Below, piece after piece: positions 40,845 to 46,160 of a stretch of DNA of 64,000 nucleotides; within the stretch, counting starts at the first letter, position 1, and each line of letters begins with the position of its first letter. The DNA is from Roseibacillus persicicus (lineage in GTDB: Bacteria > Verrucomicrobiota > Verrucomicrobiia > Verrucomicrobiales > Akkermansiaceae): the NCBI RefSeq assembly GCF_014651675.1, contig NZ_BMXI01000006.1, forward strand, positions 1 through 64,000, in the 5' to 3' direction. The notes under the pieces are model-generated. The model ran no database searches. It was not told where the DNA came from and saw nothing but the letters and a program-made list of their open reading frames with translations. Both the position numbers and the translations under genes were made by a program.

Positions 40845-41423
40845 ATGAAGAATATTAAATTGTTAGGAATTGTAGGAGTTGCCCTCGTCGCTTGCAGCTG
40901 TAGTTCATCGAATGTAGCCGTCAAGCAGACTGAGACCGAGAGTTCCTCCCTGCGTGCTTCCAACAGCGAAGAGCGATTGGCTCTGGAAATTCACAATGAA
41001 GTGAATCGTTACCGGACAGGCAAGGGCTTGAGCTCTTTGAAGTTCCATGCAGGACTTGGCCGGATGTCGAAGAAGCATTCGGACTACATGCGGGACAACG
41101 CCGGTTCCTTCTCGGTGGATGGCCGACTGATTTCTCACTATGGTTTCGATGGTCGCCGCACTTTGGCGGATCGGAAATACCGCATCGAGTCTCTCAGTGA
41201 GAACGTCATCGCAAGTTTCGATATGGGACAGGGGACTGACCTGGCGGCCAAAATGGTGCGTGGTTGGTTGAATTCTCCCAACCATAAGGCGAACCTTGAT
41301 TCGAAGTGGGAGCAGACTGGCATCGGAGTATCTTTCGACAAAGAAGGACGGGCATTCGTGACTCAGACCTTTGGTTCCGATCCATCCCAAGTGTTGACTG
41401 TTGGTGGTCCCTCCCAGTGGTAG
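40845..41423 (+). CDS. CAP-domain lipoprotein
   Basis: The 192-residue exported protein has a canonical lipobox (LVAC, Cys at residue 17) after MKNIKLLGIVGVALVAC. After a short Ser-rich linker the CAP/SCP domain (about 45-185) has IHNEVNRYRTGKGLSSLKF, then KKHSDYMRD, SENVIASF and WLNSPNHKANLDSKW, the usual motifs. In this family the conserved His and Glu residues bind Zn, and several members act as proteases or cell-wall-binding proteins. Lipidation would anchor it to a membrane. It converges on the TolC-like gene with 9 bases between stops. Confidence 0.85.
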   Translation: MKNIKLLGIVGVALVACSCSSSNVAVKQTETESSSLRASNSEERLALEIHNEVNRYRTGKGLSSLKFHAGLGRMSKKHSDYMRDNAGSFSVDGRLISHYGFDGRRTLADRKYRIESLSENVIASFDMGQGTDLAAKMVRGWLNSPNHKANLDSKWEQTGIGVSFDKEGRAFVTQTFGSDPSQVLTVGGPSQW

Positions 41424-41432
41424 GAATTCTCT

Positions 41433-42854
41433 TTAATATGAGCCACCGAGCGCCAGAAGGAGGTCGAGATGATTCTGGAGGCGCTGATTTTTTAAGGAAA
41501 TAAGGCTGGCGCGGGCATTGAGAGCACGCCGCTGGGCTTCCAGGACCTCCAGAATGCTGGGGCGATTTCCTTCGTCGAGTCCTTCCACAAAGTTGCTTTC
41601 AGCCCACTTTTCTGCAAGAGCAGTATTTTCCACTTCGGTGAGAAGATGCTGCTCTTGTTGCTTGAGGGAGGTGTCGGTTGCGAGGGCTGATTCCACTTCG
41701 CGAAGGGCGGTGAGTGCGTCGCGCTCGTAGAGGCGAATCTGATTTTCATTTTCAGCCAAAGACTGGCGGCTTCGGGCGGTCAGCTCTCCCCCCGAATAGA
41801 GATTTTGAGAAACGCTGGCAGCCAGTGAGGCGGCGAAGTTGCCAGGGTCGAGGATGTTGAGAAGGTCCGAAGACGAGCTGCCGCCGCTGCTGGTCAGGCG
41901 AAAGTTTGGTAGTAAGTTTTTGCGGGAGGCGTCCGCGCGCTTGGCGGATGCGAAAATCCGGAGGCGACGGGCGGAAAGGTCAGGTCGCCGCTCCAAGAGG
42001 TCAGAGGGGAGGCCTGCGCGGATATTGGGAATCGCGGGGAGATCTCCGCTTGCAACCACGTCGGCATCGGGGTAGCGGCCAAGAAGAAGTTGCAGTGATC
42101 GGGCCGCTTCGTCGCGGGCCAGTTGGCGGGATTTCAGCGAGCGTTCGGCCGACGCGATATTACTGCGGCCAAAGGCATCATCGAGGGGACGGAGCGTGCC
42201 CAGCTTGTAGCCGCGCTGAATGATTTGGTAATTTTGCTGGAATGACTTGAGGGTTTCGCGAGCGAGAACCAACTGTTTCTCGGCAGTGACGAGGTTGCAC
42301 CAGCTCTGGGCGGTGTTGATGGCCAGAGAAAGCCGGGCGGAGCGAAAGTCGGCAACGGCAGCTTCGTAGTCGGCAACAGTCGCCACCTCCAGGTCCCGCA
42401 GACGTCCCCAGACGTCGGGTTCCCAGGAGGCATTCAGGGATAGCCCGTAGGAATCGGAGACGTCGTCCTCGCTGAGTGAAACCGAGCTGTTTCCCGAGGC
42501 ACTGACACTCGGCAGGCGGTTGGCTCTACCGATAATCGTTCCTTCGCGGGCGGATTTGAGCCGGGCCGCGGTGGCCTGCAGATCGGGGTTTTTAGCGAGA
42601 GCTTCGGTAACGATCTGTCTCAATTGACGGTCTTTCAGGCTGGAAAGCCATCCGGTCGAAACGCGACTGTTCTGTCCACTCTGGGCCGCCGCGAATGCCG
42701 AGCGAATATTCAAAGAAATTCCTTCATTAGGGCGTTCCTGAGAGACTGGGTTGCAGGAGTTTACGGCTATAGAGAAAGCCAGAATGCCAACAAGTTTGTA
42801 GTGACTAAAATGTTGGAAGTTTTGTCTTCTGAGTTGCATTCTGTAATAAAACAT
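41433..42854 (-). CDS. TolC/NodT-type outer-membrane efflux lipoprotein
   Basis: The 473-residue product starts with an unusually long basic N-terminus, then a hydrophobic segment and a likely lipobox (AVNSC, near residue 34). The mature part shows the duplicated helical barrel of outer-membrane efflux channels: NPDLQATAARLKSAREG, then SWEPDVWGRLRDLE, and LYSGGELTARSRQSLAENEN. It probably forms a trimeric channel for an RND or ABC exporter encoded elsewhere, since no pump or adaptor gene lies beside it. The gene is divergent from the retropepsin gene, with only 18 bases between the start codons; the ATG five codons in (42839) is an alternative. Confidence 0.85.
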   Translation of the reverse strand: MFYYRMQLRRQNFQHFSHYKLVGILAFSIAVNSCNPVSQERPNEGISLNIRSAFAAAQSGQNSRVSTGWLSSLKDRQLRQIVTEALAKNPDLQATAARLKSAREGTIIGRANRLPSVSASGNSSVSLSEDDVSDSYGLSLNASWEPDVWGRLRDLEVATVADYEAAVADFRSARLSLAINTAQSWCNLVTAEKQLVLARETLKSFQQNYQIIQRGYKLGTLRPLDDAFGRSNIASAERSLKSRQLARDEAARSLQLLLGRYPDADVVASGDLPAIPNIRAGLPSDLLERRPDLSARRLRIFASAKRADASRKNLLPNFRLTSSGGSSSSDLLNILDPGNFAASLAASVSQNLYSGGELTARSRQSLAENENQIRLYERDALTALREVESALATDTSLKQQEQHLLTEVENTALAEKWAESNFVEGLDEGNRPSILEVLEAQRRALNARASLISLKNQRLQNHLDLLLALGGSY

Positions 42855-42872
42855 TCAGATACAGGGCACACG

Positions 42873-43610
42873 ATGAAATGGTTTCAACAAACGGCCGGAA
42901 TTCCTCTTATTTTTTTAATTCTAGCGGGAGGCAGCCTTTGTGGTGCTGAATCTGAAAAAGCATTGGATGAGATTGTCGAGGCAAAGGTTGCCCCGAAAGA
43001 AGAGGCGAAGTCATCCTCCGAGTCCGTCACAAAAACGGAAGAGGTGCCTCTGGAGTCTGGCAAGGACTCTGGGTCTGTTCCCAAAGAGGAACCCATCGAA
43101 AGTGCGCCCGTCGATGAAAAGACGGCCGAGGCGGCTGAAGAAGCCGAGGATAAGAAGCACGAGGAAGATCCGATGGAGGCGCGCCAGATCCTCGGATGGA
43201 AAGAGTGGGTCAAGGTGGGGACTAAGGCCGAGCAAATGAGAGCGAAGCTCGACAGTGGAGCCCGCACTTCGTCCTTGCACGCGGAGGATGTGGAAGAGTT
43301 TGAGAGAGACGGCCGGAGCTGGGTGCGATTCTCGATGCGCGATCCCGAAGAAGAAGACTCCAAGGCTATTTTAATCAAGGCCCCCGTTCAGCGCATTGCA
43401 AAGGTTAAGAATACCGATGGGACGATGGAGCGACGTTTCGTGGTGGAATTGGGTTTCGAGATGGGTGGCCGTCACCTGCGGGAGGAATTCACCCTCAATG
43501 ATCGGACTGGAATGACTTGTCCGATTTTGATCGGCCGCAACGCGTTGCGCCACCTTGGCTACGTTGACTGCAGCCGCGTCGATCTCGCTCCGAAGAAGAT
43601 TTTCAAGTGA
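42873..43610 (+). CDS. Retropepsin-like protease, RimK-operon type
   Basis: The product is 245 residues from the ATG at 42873, with a signal peptide (MKWFQQTAGIPLIFLI) and an acidic, Glu/Lys/Ser-rich linker to about residue 105. The C-terminal domain (about 105-240) belongs to the family once called ATP-dependent zinc proteases and now seen as retropepsin-like aspartic peptidases. It reads LGWKEWVKVG, then D127 in AKLDSGARTSSLHA and the ILIGRNAL strand. It lies 10 bases before the 7TM gene and then the ATP-grasp ligase gene, the usual order. A peptidase partner that reverses a peptide modification made by the ligase is the accepted inference. Confidence 0.85.
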   Translation: MKWFQQTAGIPLIFLILAGGSLCGAESEKALDEIVEAKVAPKEEAKSSSESVTKTEEVPLESGKDSGSVPKEEPIESAPVDEKTAEAAEEAEDKKHEEDPMEARQILGWKEWVKVGTKAEQMRAKLDSGARTSSLHAEDVEEFERDGRSWVRFSMRDPEEEDSKAILIKAPVQRIAKVKNTDGTMERRFVVELGFEMGGRHLREEFTLNDRTGMTCPILIGRNALRHLGYVDCSRVDLAPKKIFK

Positions 43611-43620
43611 GATTACCTTA

Positions 43621-45147
43621 ATGAAACGAAAAAGCGCGCTCCTCTGGGGTCTTGTGATTCTGCTGTGTGGCACAGCGGTTGGTTTGGCTGTTTATAAGAG
43701 CACGTCTTTGGGAGTGCCTTTTCTACCAGGCCAAAGGCAAAATGCGTGGACGGTTGAAGCGACGGTGCGCTTCGATGCCAATGGCCGTGAAGTCGAAGTT
43801 GAATTGGGGCTGCCGCCATTGAAGGAGAACTCGGAGGTCCGCCAGGAGGTGGCATCTCTGGGTTACGGATATCAGGAAAGGAATCTGGTTGGTCAAGGAC
43901 GACGGGGAATCTGGAGTGCTCGTTCGCGCTCTGGGGTTCAGCGGCTTTACTACCAAATCAGTCTCGCCGAAGAAGATTTGCGGTCGCTGGGAGAGATCAA
44001 GAGTTCCGCTCCCGAGGTGGAGCCCAGTCGCATTGGAGGAAGTGAGTCCGAGATGTTGGCGCGTGAAACCTTGCGAAAAGAATGCCGCGAGAAATCAGCC
44101 AACCCGGAAACCTTCGTTACCCAATTGTGGAGTCGCCTCTTCGGGGAAAGTTTGAGCCAAGAGGCAGGCTTTCTCCGTCGGAGCTACGAGGCCCGCATTG
44201 GGGAAGGGTGGGAGATGAGTCTCTTGCAGGACTTTTTGCAAATGGAGGGCATCGCCTATCGCAAGGCTTGGGGTGTCATTCTGAACGAGACCCTGGGATC
44301 TCAGAAACCCGTTCCGATGATTGAGTTCTATGATGGGCGGGACTGGGAAGCGGTCGAAGCTGTGGCCGCACGGGAGGCCGGTGAGCTGGTGGTATGGTCG
44401 CGGGGAGATTCGTTGTTGGACGTGCGGGGAGGTAATAATTCACAGGTCTTCTTTACCACCATTCGCAACATGGCACCCTTGGAGGCGACGGATGCGCTGC
44501 GCAATGCGCCGGCGTGGATCGGCTCGATTGCGGCATTGCCGGTTAACGAGCGACGGGTCTTTCGCTACATCGCCTTGATCCCGGTCGGGGCTTTCATGAT
44601 CGTGGTGCTGCGAAATCTGGTTGGCTTCAATATGTTGGGGACGTTCATGCCTGTCTTATTGGCGTTGTCTTTTCTCGAGATTCCCTTGGCTCCTGCTTTG
44701 CTTATGTTTTCCGCGCTGCTGGCGGCTGGACTATTCTTTCGTTTCTTTTTAAGTCGATTGAATTTGTTAGTCGTGCCGCGGGTTGCCGCGTGTGTGGTGG
44801 TGGTGAGCCTGCTGATGATTGTCTTCGGGCTGTTTAGTTGGCGGATGGGGCTCACGGTGGGGTTGGAAGTAACGGTCTTTCCCATGGTGGTGCTAGCGTG
44901 GACCATCGAACGGATGTCCATTCTCTGGGATGAGGAAGGCGCGGGTGCAGCCATGGTGCAGGCGGGAGGAAGCTTGGCCGCTGCGGTCTTGGCCTATCTC
45001 GTGATGCGCATTCGCACGGTCGATTACTGGGCCCAGTATTTTCCTGAACTTCTCTTGATTCTGCTCGCAGGGATTTTGCTCATCGGTCGCTATACGGGCT
45101 ATCGGATGTCTGAGCTGATTCGCTTCAAAAGCTTCGTGAAGTCATGA
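43621..45147 (+). CDS. Inactive transglutaminase-like protein with 7TM domain
   Basis: The 508-residue protein has an N-terminal membrane segment (about 6-27), a large extracytoplasmic part (about 35-325) and a C-terminal seven-helix membrane domain (about 330-495). The outer part is the inactive transglutaminase-like domain of the UUP1/InactTransglut family, whose members lack the catalytic Cys-His-Asp triad; none was found here. The gene overlaps the ATP-grasp gene by 4 bases (ATGA), so translation is coupled. It probably senses or presents the peptide handled by the other two operon members; the exact role is not known. Confidence 0.85.
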   Translation: MKRKSALLWGLVILLCGTAVGLAVYKSTSLGVPFLPGQRQNAWTVEATVRFDANGREVEVELGLPPLKENSEVRQEVASLGYGYQERNLVGQGRRGIWSARSRSGVQRLYYQISLAEEDLRSLGEIKSSAPEVEPSRIGGSESEMLARETLRKECREKSANPETFVTQLWSRLFGESLSQEAGFLRRSYEARIGEGWEMSLLQDFLQMEGIAYRKAWGVILNETLGSQKPVPMIEFYDGRDWEAVEAVAAREAGELVVWSRGDSLLDVRGGNNSQVFFTTIRNMAPLEATDALRNAPAWIGSIAALPVNERRVFRYIALIPVGAFMIVVLRNLVGFNMLGTFMPVLLALSFLEIPLAPALLMFSALLAAGLFFRFFLSRLNLLVVPRVAACVVVVSLLMIVFGLFSWRMGLTVGLEVTVFPMVVLAWTIERMSILWDEEGAGAAMVQAGGSLAAAVLAYLVMRIRTVDYWAQYFPELLLILLAGILLIGRYTGYRMSELIRFKSFVKS

Positions 45148-46160
45148 AAAGCAAGTGGTGGCATCGCTGGTTCCTCACCCCCGGAGAGTTGAATCGTCTG
45201 GGCGTGGTTGGGATCAATGCTCGCAATGGGCGATACCTGTTGCCGAATAATCCGCGAAAATTCTATCGCTCGGTGGACGACAAGGTCATGTCCAAGCGTC
45301 TGGCGATCGAGATGGATATTCCTGTGCCCGAACTCTACGGCACAATCGAGAGTCCCGGAGACTTGGGCAAAATCGCCAAGCTGGTGAAGGGGAAAGAAGC
45401 TTTTGTCATCAAGCCGGCCCGCGGAAGTGGTGGAAAGGGTGTCTTGGTGATCCAAGGACGCTCGGGTGATGCTTTTTTAAAAGGGAGCGGAACGTCGCTC
45501 ACGATGGAGGAGGTCCGCTTCCATGCTGCCAACATACTGGGTGGGCTTTTCAGTCTCGGTGGTCAGCGCGATGTCGCGATGGTGGAGCAGTATATTTCCT
45601 GCGCCGACGAAGTCATGGCGATGAGCTACCGTGGTGCGCCCGATGTTCGGGTGGTGATGCTGCACGGCTATCCGGTGATGGCGATGTTGCGGGTGGCGAC
45701 CAAGGAGTCGGATGGTCGCGCGAATCTGCACCAAGGGGCGATTGGAATCGGGATCGATTTGACGACAGGCATCACCCATCATGCGGTGTGCCATGGTCAT
45801 CCCATTGAGATTCATCCCGACCTGAATTCCGAGCTCTTGGGGCAGCAGATTCCCGATTGGGACACCGTGCTGAAGTTGGCGGGGCTTTGCTATGAGATGA
45901 CCGGCTTGGGCTATCTCGGAGCTGACATCATGATCGGCAAGGAAGTGGGGCCGATGATCATCGAGGTCAATGCGCGACCAGGCTTGGCCATTCAGTTGGC
46001 CAATGGGGAAGGATTGCGAACGCGCTTTCAAATCGTCCACGACGAGGCCCTCCGGATGCAGCGCACTGCATCATTGGAGGAGCGAATCGATTTCTCGCGG
46101 GGACCGCTGGTGCAGAAGGCGCTTCAGACCAAAGCTTCTTTGGCGGAAGCCGCGAGGTAG
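45144..46160 (+). CDS. Alpha-L-glutamate ligase-like protein (RimK family)
   Basis: The 338-residue ATP-grasp ligase is probably cytoplasmic. It has [17 protein letters not shown] (Gly-rich ATP loop), [32 protein letters not shown] and the metal-binding end [17 protein letters not shown]. It opens [20 protein letters not shown], like other members of the three-gene operon. RimK-type enzymes add glutamate to protein or peptide carboxyl groups; the acceptor here is unknown. The 3' end overlaps the 3' end of sdhB on the other strand by 37 bases. Confidence 0.88.

Follow-up and report, generated by a model that had tools for sequence, protein, structure and literature searches.

A complete Rlo-type gene set in the verrucomicrobium Roseibacillus persicicus, with an apparent change in the anchoring of its protease

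Introduction

In Pseudomonas aeruginosa PA14, the rloABC operon (PA14_41690, 41710, 41730), described in 2025, encodes an exported retropepsin, a membrane-fused transglutaminase that is inactive and a cytoplasmic ATP-grasp ligase, in that order (PMC12239564). Here we analyze three packed genes, all on the forward strand, at positions 42873-46160 of a 64,000-nucleotide stretch of Roseibacillus persicicus DNA (Verrucomicrobiota; contig NZ_BMXI01000006.1, positions 1 to 64,000, referred to here as the window), which encode a retropepsin, a membrane protein and a ligase and which are the rloABC gene set of P. aeruginosa, so that the window holds a complete Rlo-type system. The system is real, well conserved and known from another phylum; what is described here is a new member in which the anchoring of the protease is changed.

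In P. aeruginosa, three exported RloA proteases are jointly required for growth at low salt, and the rlo phenotypes also include cell shape, antibiotic sensitivity and biofilms (PMC12239564). RloA cleaves runs of 8 or 10 glutamates in vitro and leaves runs of 6 or fewer intact, an arginine next to or inside the run weakens or abolishes cleavage, and among the residues near the active site it is the loss of R114/R137 that hits cleavage hardest (PMC12239564). Deletion of rloB or of rloC rescues the triple rloA mutant, fully for low-salt growth and partly for the other defects (PMC12239564). The same study places 96% of RloB matches in the Proteobacteria, and the strings "Verrucomicrob" and "lipoprotein" are absent from its main text (PMC12239564). 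A literature search of limited reach found no second paper naming RloA, RloB and RloC together, and the genes do surface in two other reports: an insertion in the RloB homologue of Shewanella vesiculosa leads to hypervesiculation (PMC12096838), and insertions in PA1766-PA1768 are among the suppressors listed by work on exopolysaccharide in flagellar mutants of P. aeruginosa (PMC7314104).

Two further systems invite comparison. RimB and RimK, the protease and ligase for glutamates on ribosomal protein S6, are homologous to the protease and ligase of the window and share the polyglutamate chemistry (PMC11957791). Unlike the window operon, this pair is cytoplasmic and has no membrane partner. PgsBCA/CapBCA combines a cytoplasmic ligase, belonging to a family other than that of RloC, with a membrane subunit and hydrolases acting outside, and its likeness to the window operon is one of working only. 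The amidoligase systems of Iyer et al. 2009 are reportedly the source of the prediction that gene sets of this type make and remove peptide tags. Those sets are a prediction only, to which the rlo study has since added genetics and in vitro activity; the description of such tag writing and removal as "predicted" in an earlier note on the window is thus out of date, given the polyglutamate cleavage in vitro and the suppressor genetics reported for P. aeruginosa rlo (PMC12239564).

Results

Gene content and family assignment

All three proteins fit their families far beyond chance, and the identities given to them in the earlier note are borne out by Pfam and NCBIfam matches at the coordinates that follow. 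The retropepsin gene (42873-43610, +) encodes 245 residues, of which 106-241 match PF05618 at 128.2 bits (cut-off 27; E 2.7e-37). After a gap of 10 nucleotides follows the gene of the RloB-type membrane protein (43621-45147, +; 508 residues), with matches to PF14400 (E 6.4e-32) and PF14402 (E 5.9e-82). Directly 3′ of it, and overlapping it by ATGA, lies the gene of the ligase (45144-46160, +; 338 residues), which matches PF14397 (E 4.8e-78) and PF08443 (E 2.4e-9) and reaches 366.4 bits against NCBIfam TIGR02291, above the cut-off of 314.2, in keeping with its earlier description as a RimK-type, ATP-grasp ligase. The retropepsin falls below the NCBIfam cut-offs for RloA3 (121.5 of 210 bits, the best model), RloA (79.4 of 280) and RloA2 (75.5 of 250), as does the membrane protein for RloB (276.6 of 900). 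The two proteins are therefore called Rlo-type here and do not qualify for the NCBI names RloA and RloB. The retropepsin is also below the RimB equivalog cut-off (76.8 of 200 bits) and carries an N-terminal export signal as judged by eye. Relative to P. aeruginosa rloABC, the window set keeps the catalytic aspartate and the two most important arginines, and it differs in its phylum, in missing the NCBI cut-offs for RloA and RloB and in having no lipobox.

Co-inheritance of the three genes

Conservation was examined in 80 loci, the best 80 of 572 relatives, and in 288 genomes of the window's phylum that were surveyed for RloB, RloC (TIGR02291) and PF05618; PF14401, used as an initial probe, gave no match, nor did it in any control genome, and this negative is uninformative. 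The protease lies upstream of RloB in 80/80 loci and the ligase downstream of it in 79/80, the exception (L051) being a contig that ends inside RloB. Across the phylum, RloB is found in 33/288 genomes and RloC scores above its cut-off in 32/288, all 32 of them within the 33; in the 33rd genome (G172) the RloC sequence meets a run of N. Counting weaker TIGR02291 matches brings the number to 46/288, other ATP-grasps among them. PF05618 occurs in 48/288 genomes and stands upstream, on the same contig, in 31/33 of those with RloB. The three genes travel as one unit, a result that is new here and that upholds, through the A-B-C order across loci and the co-inheritance within the phylum, the claim that they are conserved as a set. 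No further conserved gene belongs to the operon: among 508 flanking open reading frames (ORFs) the largest cluster covers 20 of the 80 loci, 19 of these being Vibrionaceae or Shewanella, and flanking genes are conserved only inside lineages.

Absence also tends to affect the genes jointly in the family of the window, where the 20 genomes of one genus (g2) that are listed without RloB are also without RloC above cut-off, and where another genome, G251, lacks matches to both RloB and RloC and retains one weaker PF05618 match. G237 shares its genus with the window's genome. In a tree of 51 rows, drawn from 101 collected RloBs plus that of the window, all 13 rows of the window's side group on one branch with support 100/100, made up of Akkermansiaceae together with one Rubritaleaceae and one Verrucomicrobiaceae row. 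This single branch indicates that the gene is long established there, and a recent transfer of RloB into the lineage of the window is unsupported.

The protease: active site, anchor and tether

Aligned with 9g59 and 9g58, the window RloA keeps K125, D127, R188 and R211. Going by their names, we take these two entries for the Rlo crystal structures reported in the P. aeruginosa study. The catalytic Asp127 (codon 43251-43253, +), which the earlier note had placed in LDSGA, is confirmed by the sequence and by alignment with 9g59, 9g58 and 2pma. R188 and R211 are spaced by 23 residues, as are R114 and R137 of P. aeruginosa RloA, a correspondence mapped through 9g59 and the spacing and not through PA14 RloA itself.

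Residues 1-105 (42873-43187, +) comprise a putative signal peptide, whose hydrophobic N-terminus, read by eye, agrees with the protein having been called exported, and a long tether rich in Glu, Lys and Ala, as judged by composition. Outside the phylum, 52/63 operon RloAs have a lipobox ahead of a tether of about 80 residues, and RloA is therefore usually a lipoprotein there. The window RloA has no lipobox by the same strict rule, and only 1/18 RloAs of the window's side (17 named Verrucomicrobiota loci plus the window) has one, with the long tether retained; tether lengths are too short in a few rows, owing to a spurious early domain match. In other families of the phylum this rule finds a lipobox in 12/22 loci; several of the remainder come close when read by eye or have an ORF truncated at the locus end. 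From these sequences it seems that the window's side has lost the lipid anchor of RloA and kept its tether.

The linker had been described earlier as a long Glu/Lys one, and it is indeed rich here (20% Glu and 10% Lys ahead of the domain, signal peptide counted). Among the 18 window-side RloAs the Glu content of this region varies from 4 to 21%, so that it is a variable tether and not a conserved tag. No run of Glu exceeds 3 in the whole window RloA or 4 in any of the 81 operon RloAs, short of the 8 required by P. aeruginosa RloA. A built-in polyglutamate tag was accordingly rejected, and judging from its sequence the tether is unlikely to be a substrate of RloA.

Variants of the protease gene were seen elsewhere. 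Two-domain retropepsin ORFs, in which each domain has its own DTGA motif, occur at L078:3730-4917 and as the RloAs of L087, L095, L097, L107 (Endozoicomonas) and L116; such a two-domain operon protease is a single-chain, pepsin-like version of what is a homodimer elsewhere. At and just before L002 (G235:C121, from ~52473), two protease-like ORFs stand in succession ahead of RloB, the first a PF05618 match and the second a 211-residue lipobox protein with a weak retropepsin score.

The membrane protein: an inactive transglutaminase fold and invariant arginines

The RloB alignment holds 60 of 81 RloBs, near-duplicates and short sequences having been removed by hand, and the AlphaFold model built from these 60 sequences has a mean predicted local distance difference test score (pLDDT) of 88.1. 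In the model, a helix at the N-terminus precedes a domain that covers residues 40-286, and residues 308-507 form the membrane domain. The "seven membrane helices" of the earlier note are Pfam wording, and the model instead has the one N-terminal helix followed, from residue 308, by a cluster of full-length and short helices. Residues 40-286 (43738-44478, +) match 3isr, a putative cysteine protease (Z 13.0), and more distantly the periplasmic domain of TgpA (Z 6.7), a transglutaminase fold without the triad: over the 60 aligned RloBs no catalytic Cys or His is conserved in the domain, and Cys or His exceeds 30% only at residues 27 and 469, outside it, in agreement with the earlier statement that the transglutaminase is inactive.

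In the membrane domain (44542-45141, +), R331, R374, R387 and E430 are invariant in 60/60 and 24/24 aligned proteins and lie in helices according to the model. Invariant arginines in such helices would suit a negatively charged cargo, that is, a polyanion. The nearest solved fold is chain D of Na+-NQR (Z 8.0, root-mean-square deviation 3.3 over 121 residues), with RND pumps next (6.8), values at which, by the comparison tool's own notes, the similarity possibly reflects just a common arrangement. The resemblance to NqrD/RnfA (PF02508) is structural only, the sequence comparison being negative (hhalign probability 0.1%). For comparison, Rnf-Nqr genes were found in 5/6 other genomes and in none of 16 near relatives. 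A sequence search found no solved structure of RloB or PgsC.

By eye, the RloB motifs GTFMPVLLAL and FPMVVLAWTIERMS resemble GLVVPGYLAL and VIPGLIAVWMDRQG of PgsC, the membrane subunit of poly-gamma-glutamate synthesis. RloB as a relative of PgsC is rejected at the level of sequence by tests in which positive controls worked (90%, 100% and 99.8%) and a distant PgsC relative was detected, a relationship that those same tests do not find for RloB. Comparison of the RloB and PgsC alignments by hhalign gave a probability of 0.1%, or 0.4% with a larger RloB profile (P 0.14), and RloB against two true PgsCs alone gave 0.1%, the register aligned being the one seen by eye. Searches with hmmsearch in both directions over 2221 ORFs returned nothing significant, the PgsC profile ranking three RloB ORFs 13th to 15th (E 3.8 to 5.5). 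In profile Smith-Waterman comparisons with window-shuffled controls, 48 and 45 of 60 shuffles equalled the two true PgsCs, and PF14102 (CapC) was not among the matches of five RloBs at E up to 10. As a separate observation, large proteins with two tandem CapC (PF14102) units and a long C-terminal part occur at L032 and L033, in the phylum of the window, and at L140, in a genome from the phylum of a Desulfobacterales locus; the PgsCs of L031 and L139, unlike these, have a single CapC unit.

The ligase

RloC was modelled from 48 of 80 sequences, again after near-duplicates and short ones had been removed by hand (pLDDT 92.8). Foldseek gives RimK as its best match (E 1.3e-11), which makes this an ATP-grasp fold nearest to RimK in one of the two structural comparisons made. 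K90, E148, D261, E274 and N276 are invariant in 48/48 sequences, and we take them to be the ATP and Mg residues of the family. Going by the modelled fold neighbours and these invariant residues, the ligase looks active and would join amino acids.

A second pair of this chemistry appears to exist in the genome of the window. At L142:6146-6694 (G000:C21), a signal-less, RimB-like PF05618 retropepsin adjoins a recN-like gene with no RimK gene beside it, and a RimK-family ligase that passes the TIGR00768 cut-off lies on another contig (G000:C3). Counterparts of these PF05618 and TIGR00768 matches stand side by side in G178, G248 and G265. The retropepsin and ligase outside the operon are probably a separate cytoplasmic RimB/RimK, with the window operon as the envelope version.

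Neighboring genes in the window

A NodT-type outer-membrane efflux gene (41433-42854, -) is divergent from the retropepsin gene. Their earliest possible starts are 18 bp apart, and therefore one of the true starts probably lies further in. Beyond it, 40845-41423 (+) encodes a small lipoprotein with a CAP/SCP domain that weakly resembles the model of the divisome-associated lipoprotein DalA, far under its cut-off.

Discussion

The earlier note had placed ligation in the cytoplasm and the peptidase outside and had asked how the two meet; we agree with this placement and find the question rightly put. The simplest anatomy is one of synthesis inside, passage through RloB and trimming outside, which would explain how ligase and protease meet. 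Under this scheme RloC, in the cytoplasm, would either attach glutamate to an acceptor or string it into a chain, with alpha linkages like those made by RimK; RloB would sit in the inner membrane, its inactive transglutaminase domain on the periplasmic side, and would bind the product and carry or present it across the membrane; and the exported, long-tethered RloA would cut the chains down and prevent their build-up. The P. aeruginosa genetics fit a pathway with RloC, RloB and RloA acting in this order, the joint output of C and B being harmful unless A acts. A run of eight glutamate codons has no exact match in the window's genome (97.5% complete), and the lack of a genome-encoded run of this length favors a substrate made after translation. 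Glutamate is likely to be the amino acid that RloC adds; this, the passage through RloB and the validity of the scheme in Verrucomicrobiota are what we infer from the comparisons above. Taken as a whole, with RloC making glutamate chains, RloB carrying or presenting them and RloA trimming them, the reading stands in our judgment at an even balance between right and wrong.

Several points weigh against it. The authors of the Pseudomonas study leave the substrate open (PMC12239564), and neither that study nor the present analysis gives direct evidence for polyglutamate in any envelope. The named NCBI models for RloA and RloB are not reached, so on sequence grounds the function may have drifted. 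The membrane domain of RloB shows no detected kinship to a known polymer exporter, since PgsC is negative and the likeness to Na+-NQR chain D (Z 8.0) is possibly a common arrangement. VIA-align does not single out RimK for RloC, giving ArgX 18.0, RimK and LysX 16.8 each, cyanophycin synthetase 16.7, D-cycloserine synthetase 16.4 and D-Ala-D-Ala ligase 16.1. Finally, 2/33 RloB genomes are without an adjacent PF05618, which is on another contig in G118 and not found in G185 (86% complete); these are the exceptions to what emerged when the loss of single genes was looked for in close relatives, namely that loss is joint rather than gene by gene.

A bolder form of the same scheme can be put forward only tentatively, and we regard it as rather doubtful. 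The membrane domain of RloB would be a polyanion conduit by way of the invariant Arg331, Arg374 and Arg387, and RloABC would make, export and trim poly-alpha-glutamate, as a Gram-negative, convergent counterpart of poly-gamma-glutamate capsule synthesis that is long established in Verrucomicrobiota and Proteobacteria.

Somewhat less probable still, and in our view unlikely, is that RloB acts as a sensor or scaffold, its periplasmic domain reading glutamate chains or the state of the wall and switching RloC, with the substrate exported by other means. An enzyme domain that has lost its activity could plausibly serve for binding, no exporter kinship was found for RloB, and the rloB and rloC deletion mutants of P. 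aeruginosa resemble each other, as would fit an obligate activator (PMC12239564). The membrane domain is nevertheless large and rich in invariant residues, with Arg and Glu in its helices among them, which seems to be more than a simple anchor or sensor requires, and no other conserved partner or transporter gene adjoins the operon. We give yet less weight to the proposal, improbable on the present evidence, that RloC modifies a building block of the envelope (a wall precursor or a lipid-linked intermediate) with one or a few glutamates or another amino acid, which RloA removes after flipping, polyglutamate cleavage in vitro being a relic of RimB ancestry. The phenotypes in P. aeruginosa do indicate the wall (shape, antibiotics directed against the wall and low-salt growth; PMC12239564), the insertion in an RloB homologue increases vesicle release in Shewanella (PMC12096838), and the fold neighbors of RloC include small-molecule ligases, D-Ala-D-Ala ligases being at nearly equal Z. 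It is at odds with the need of RloA for at least 8 glutamates in vitro and its failure at 6 or fewer (PMC12239564), as well as with the conservation in the window RloA of the arginine pair that binds polyglutamate. That the three genes are functionally unrelated neighbors by chance can be given practically no credence, as no supporting point was found and the idea is refuted by co-inheritance, with the same three genes in the same order in 79 of 80 loci (the best of 572 relatives) and in several phyla, and with RloC above cut-off solely together with RloB (32/32 in 288 genomes).

For the family, the invariant residues in the membrane domain of RloB stand out as targets for mutation. The presence of the set in 33/288 genomes of the phylum, without a lipid anchor on the window's side, suggests that all three genes are indispensable to the system and that the lipid anchor is dispensable.

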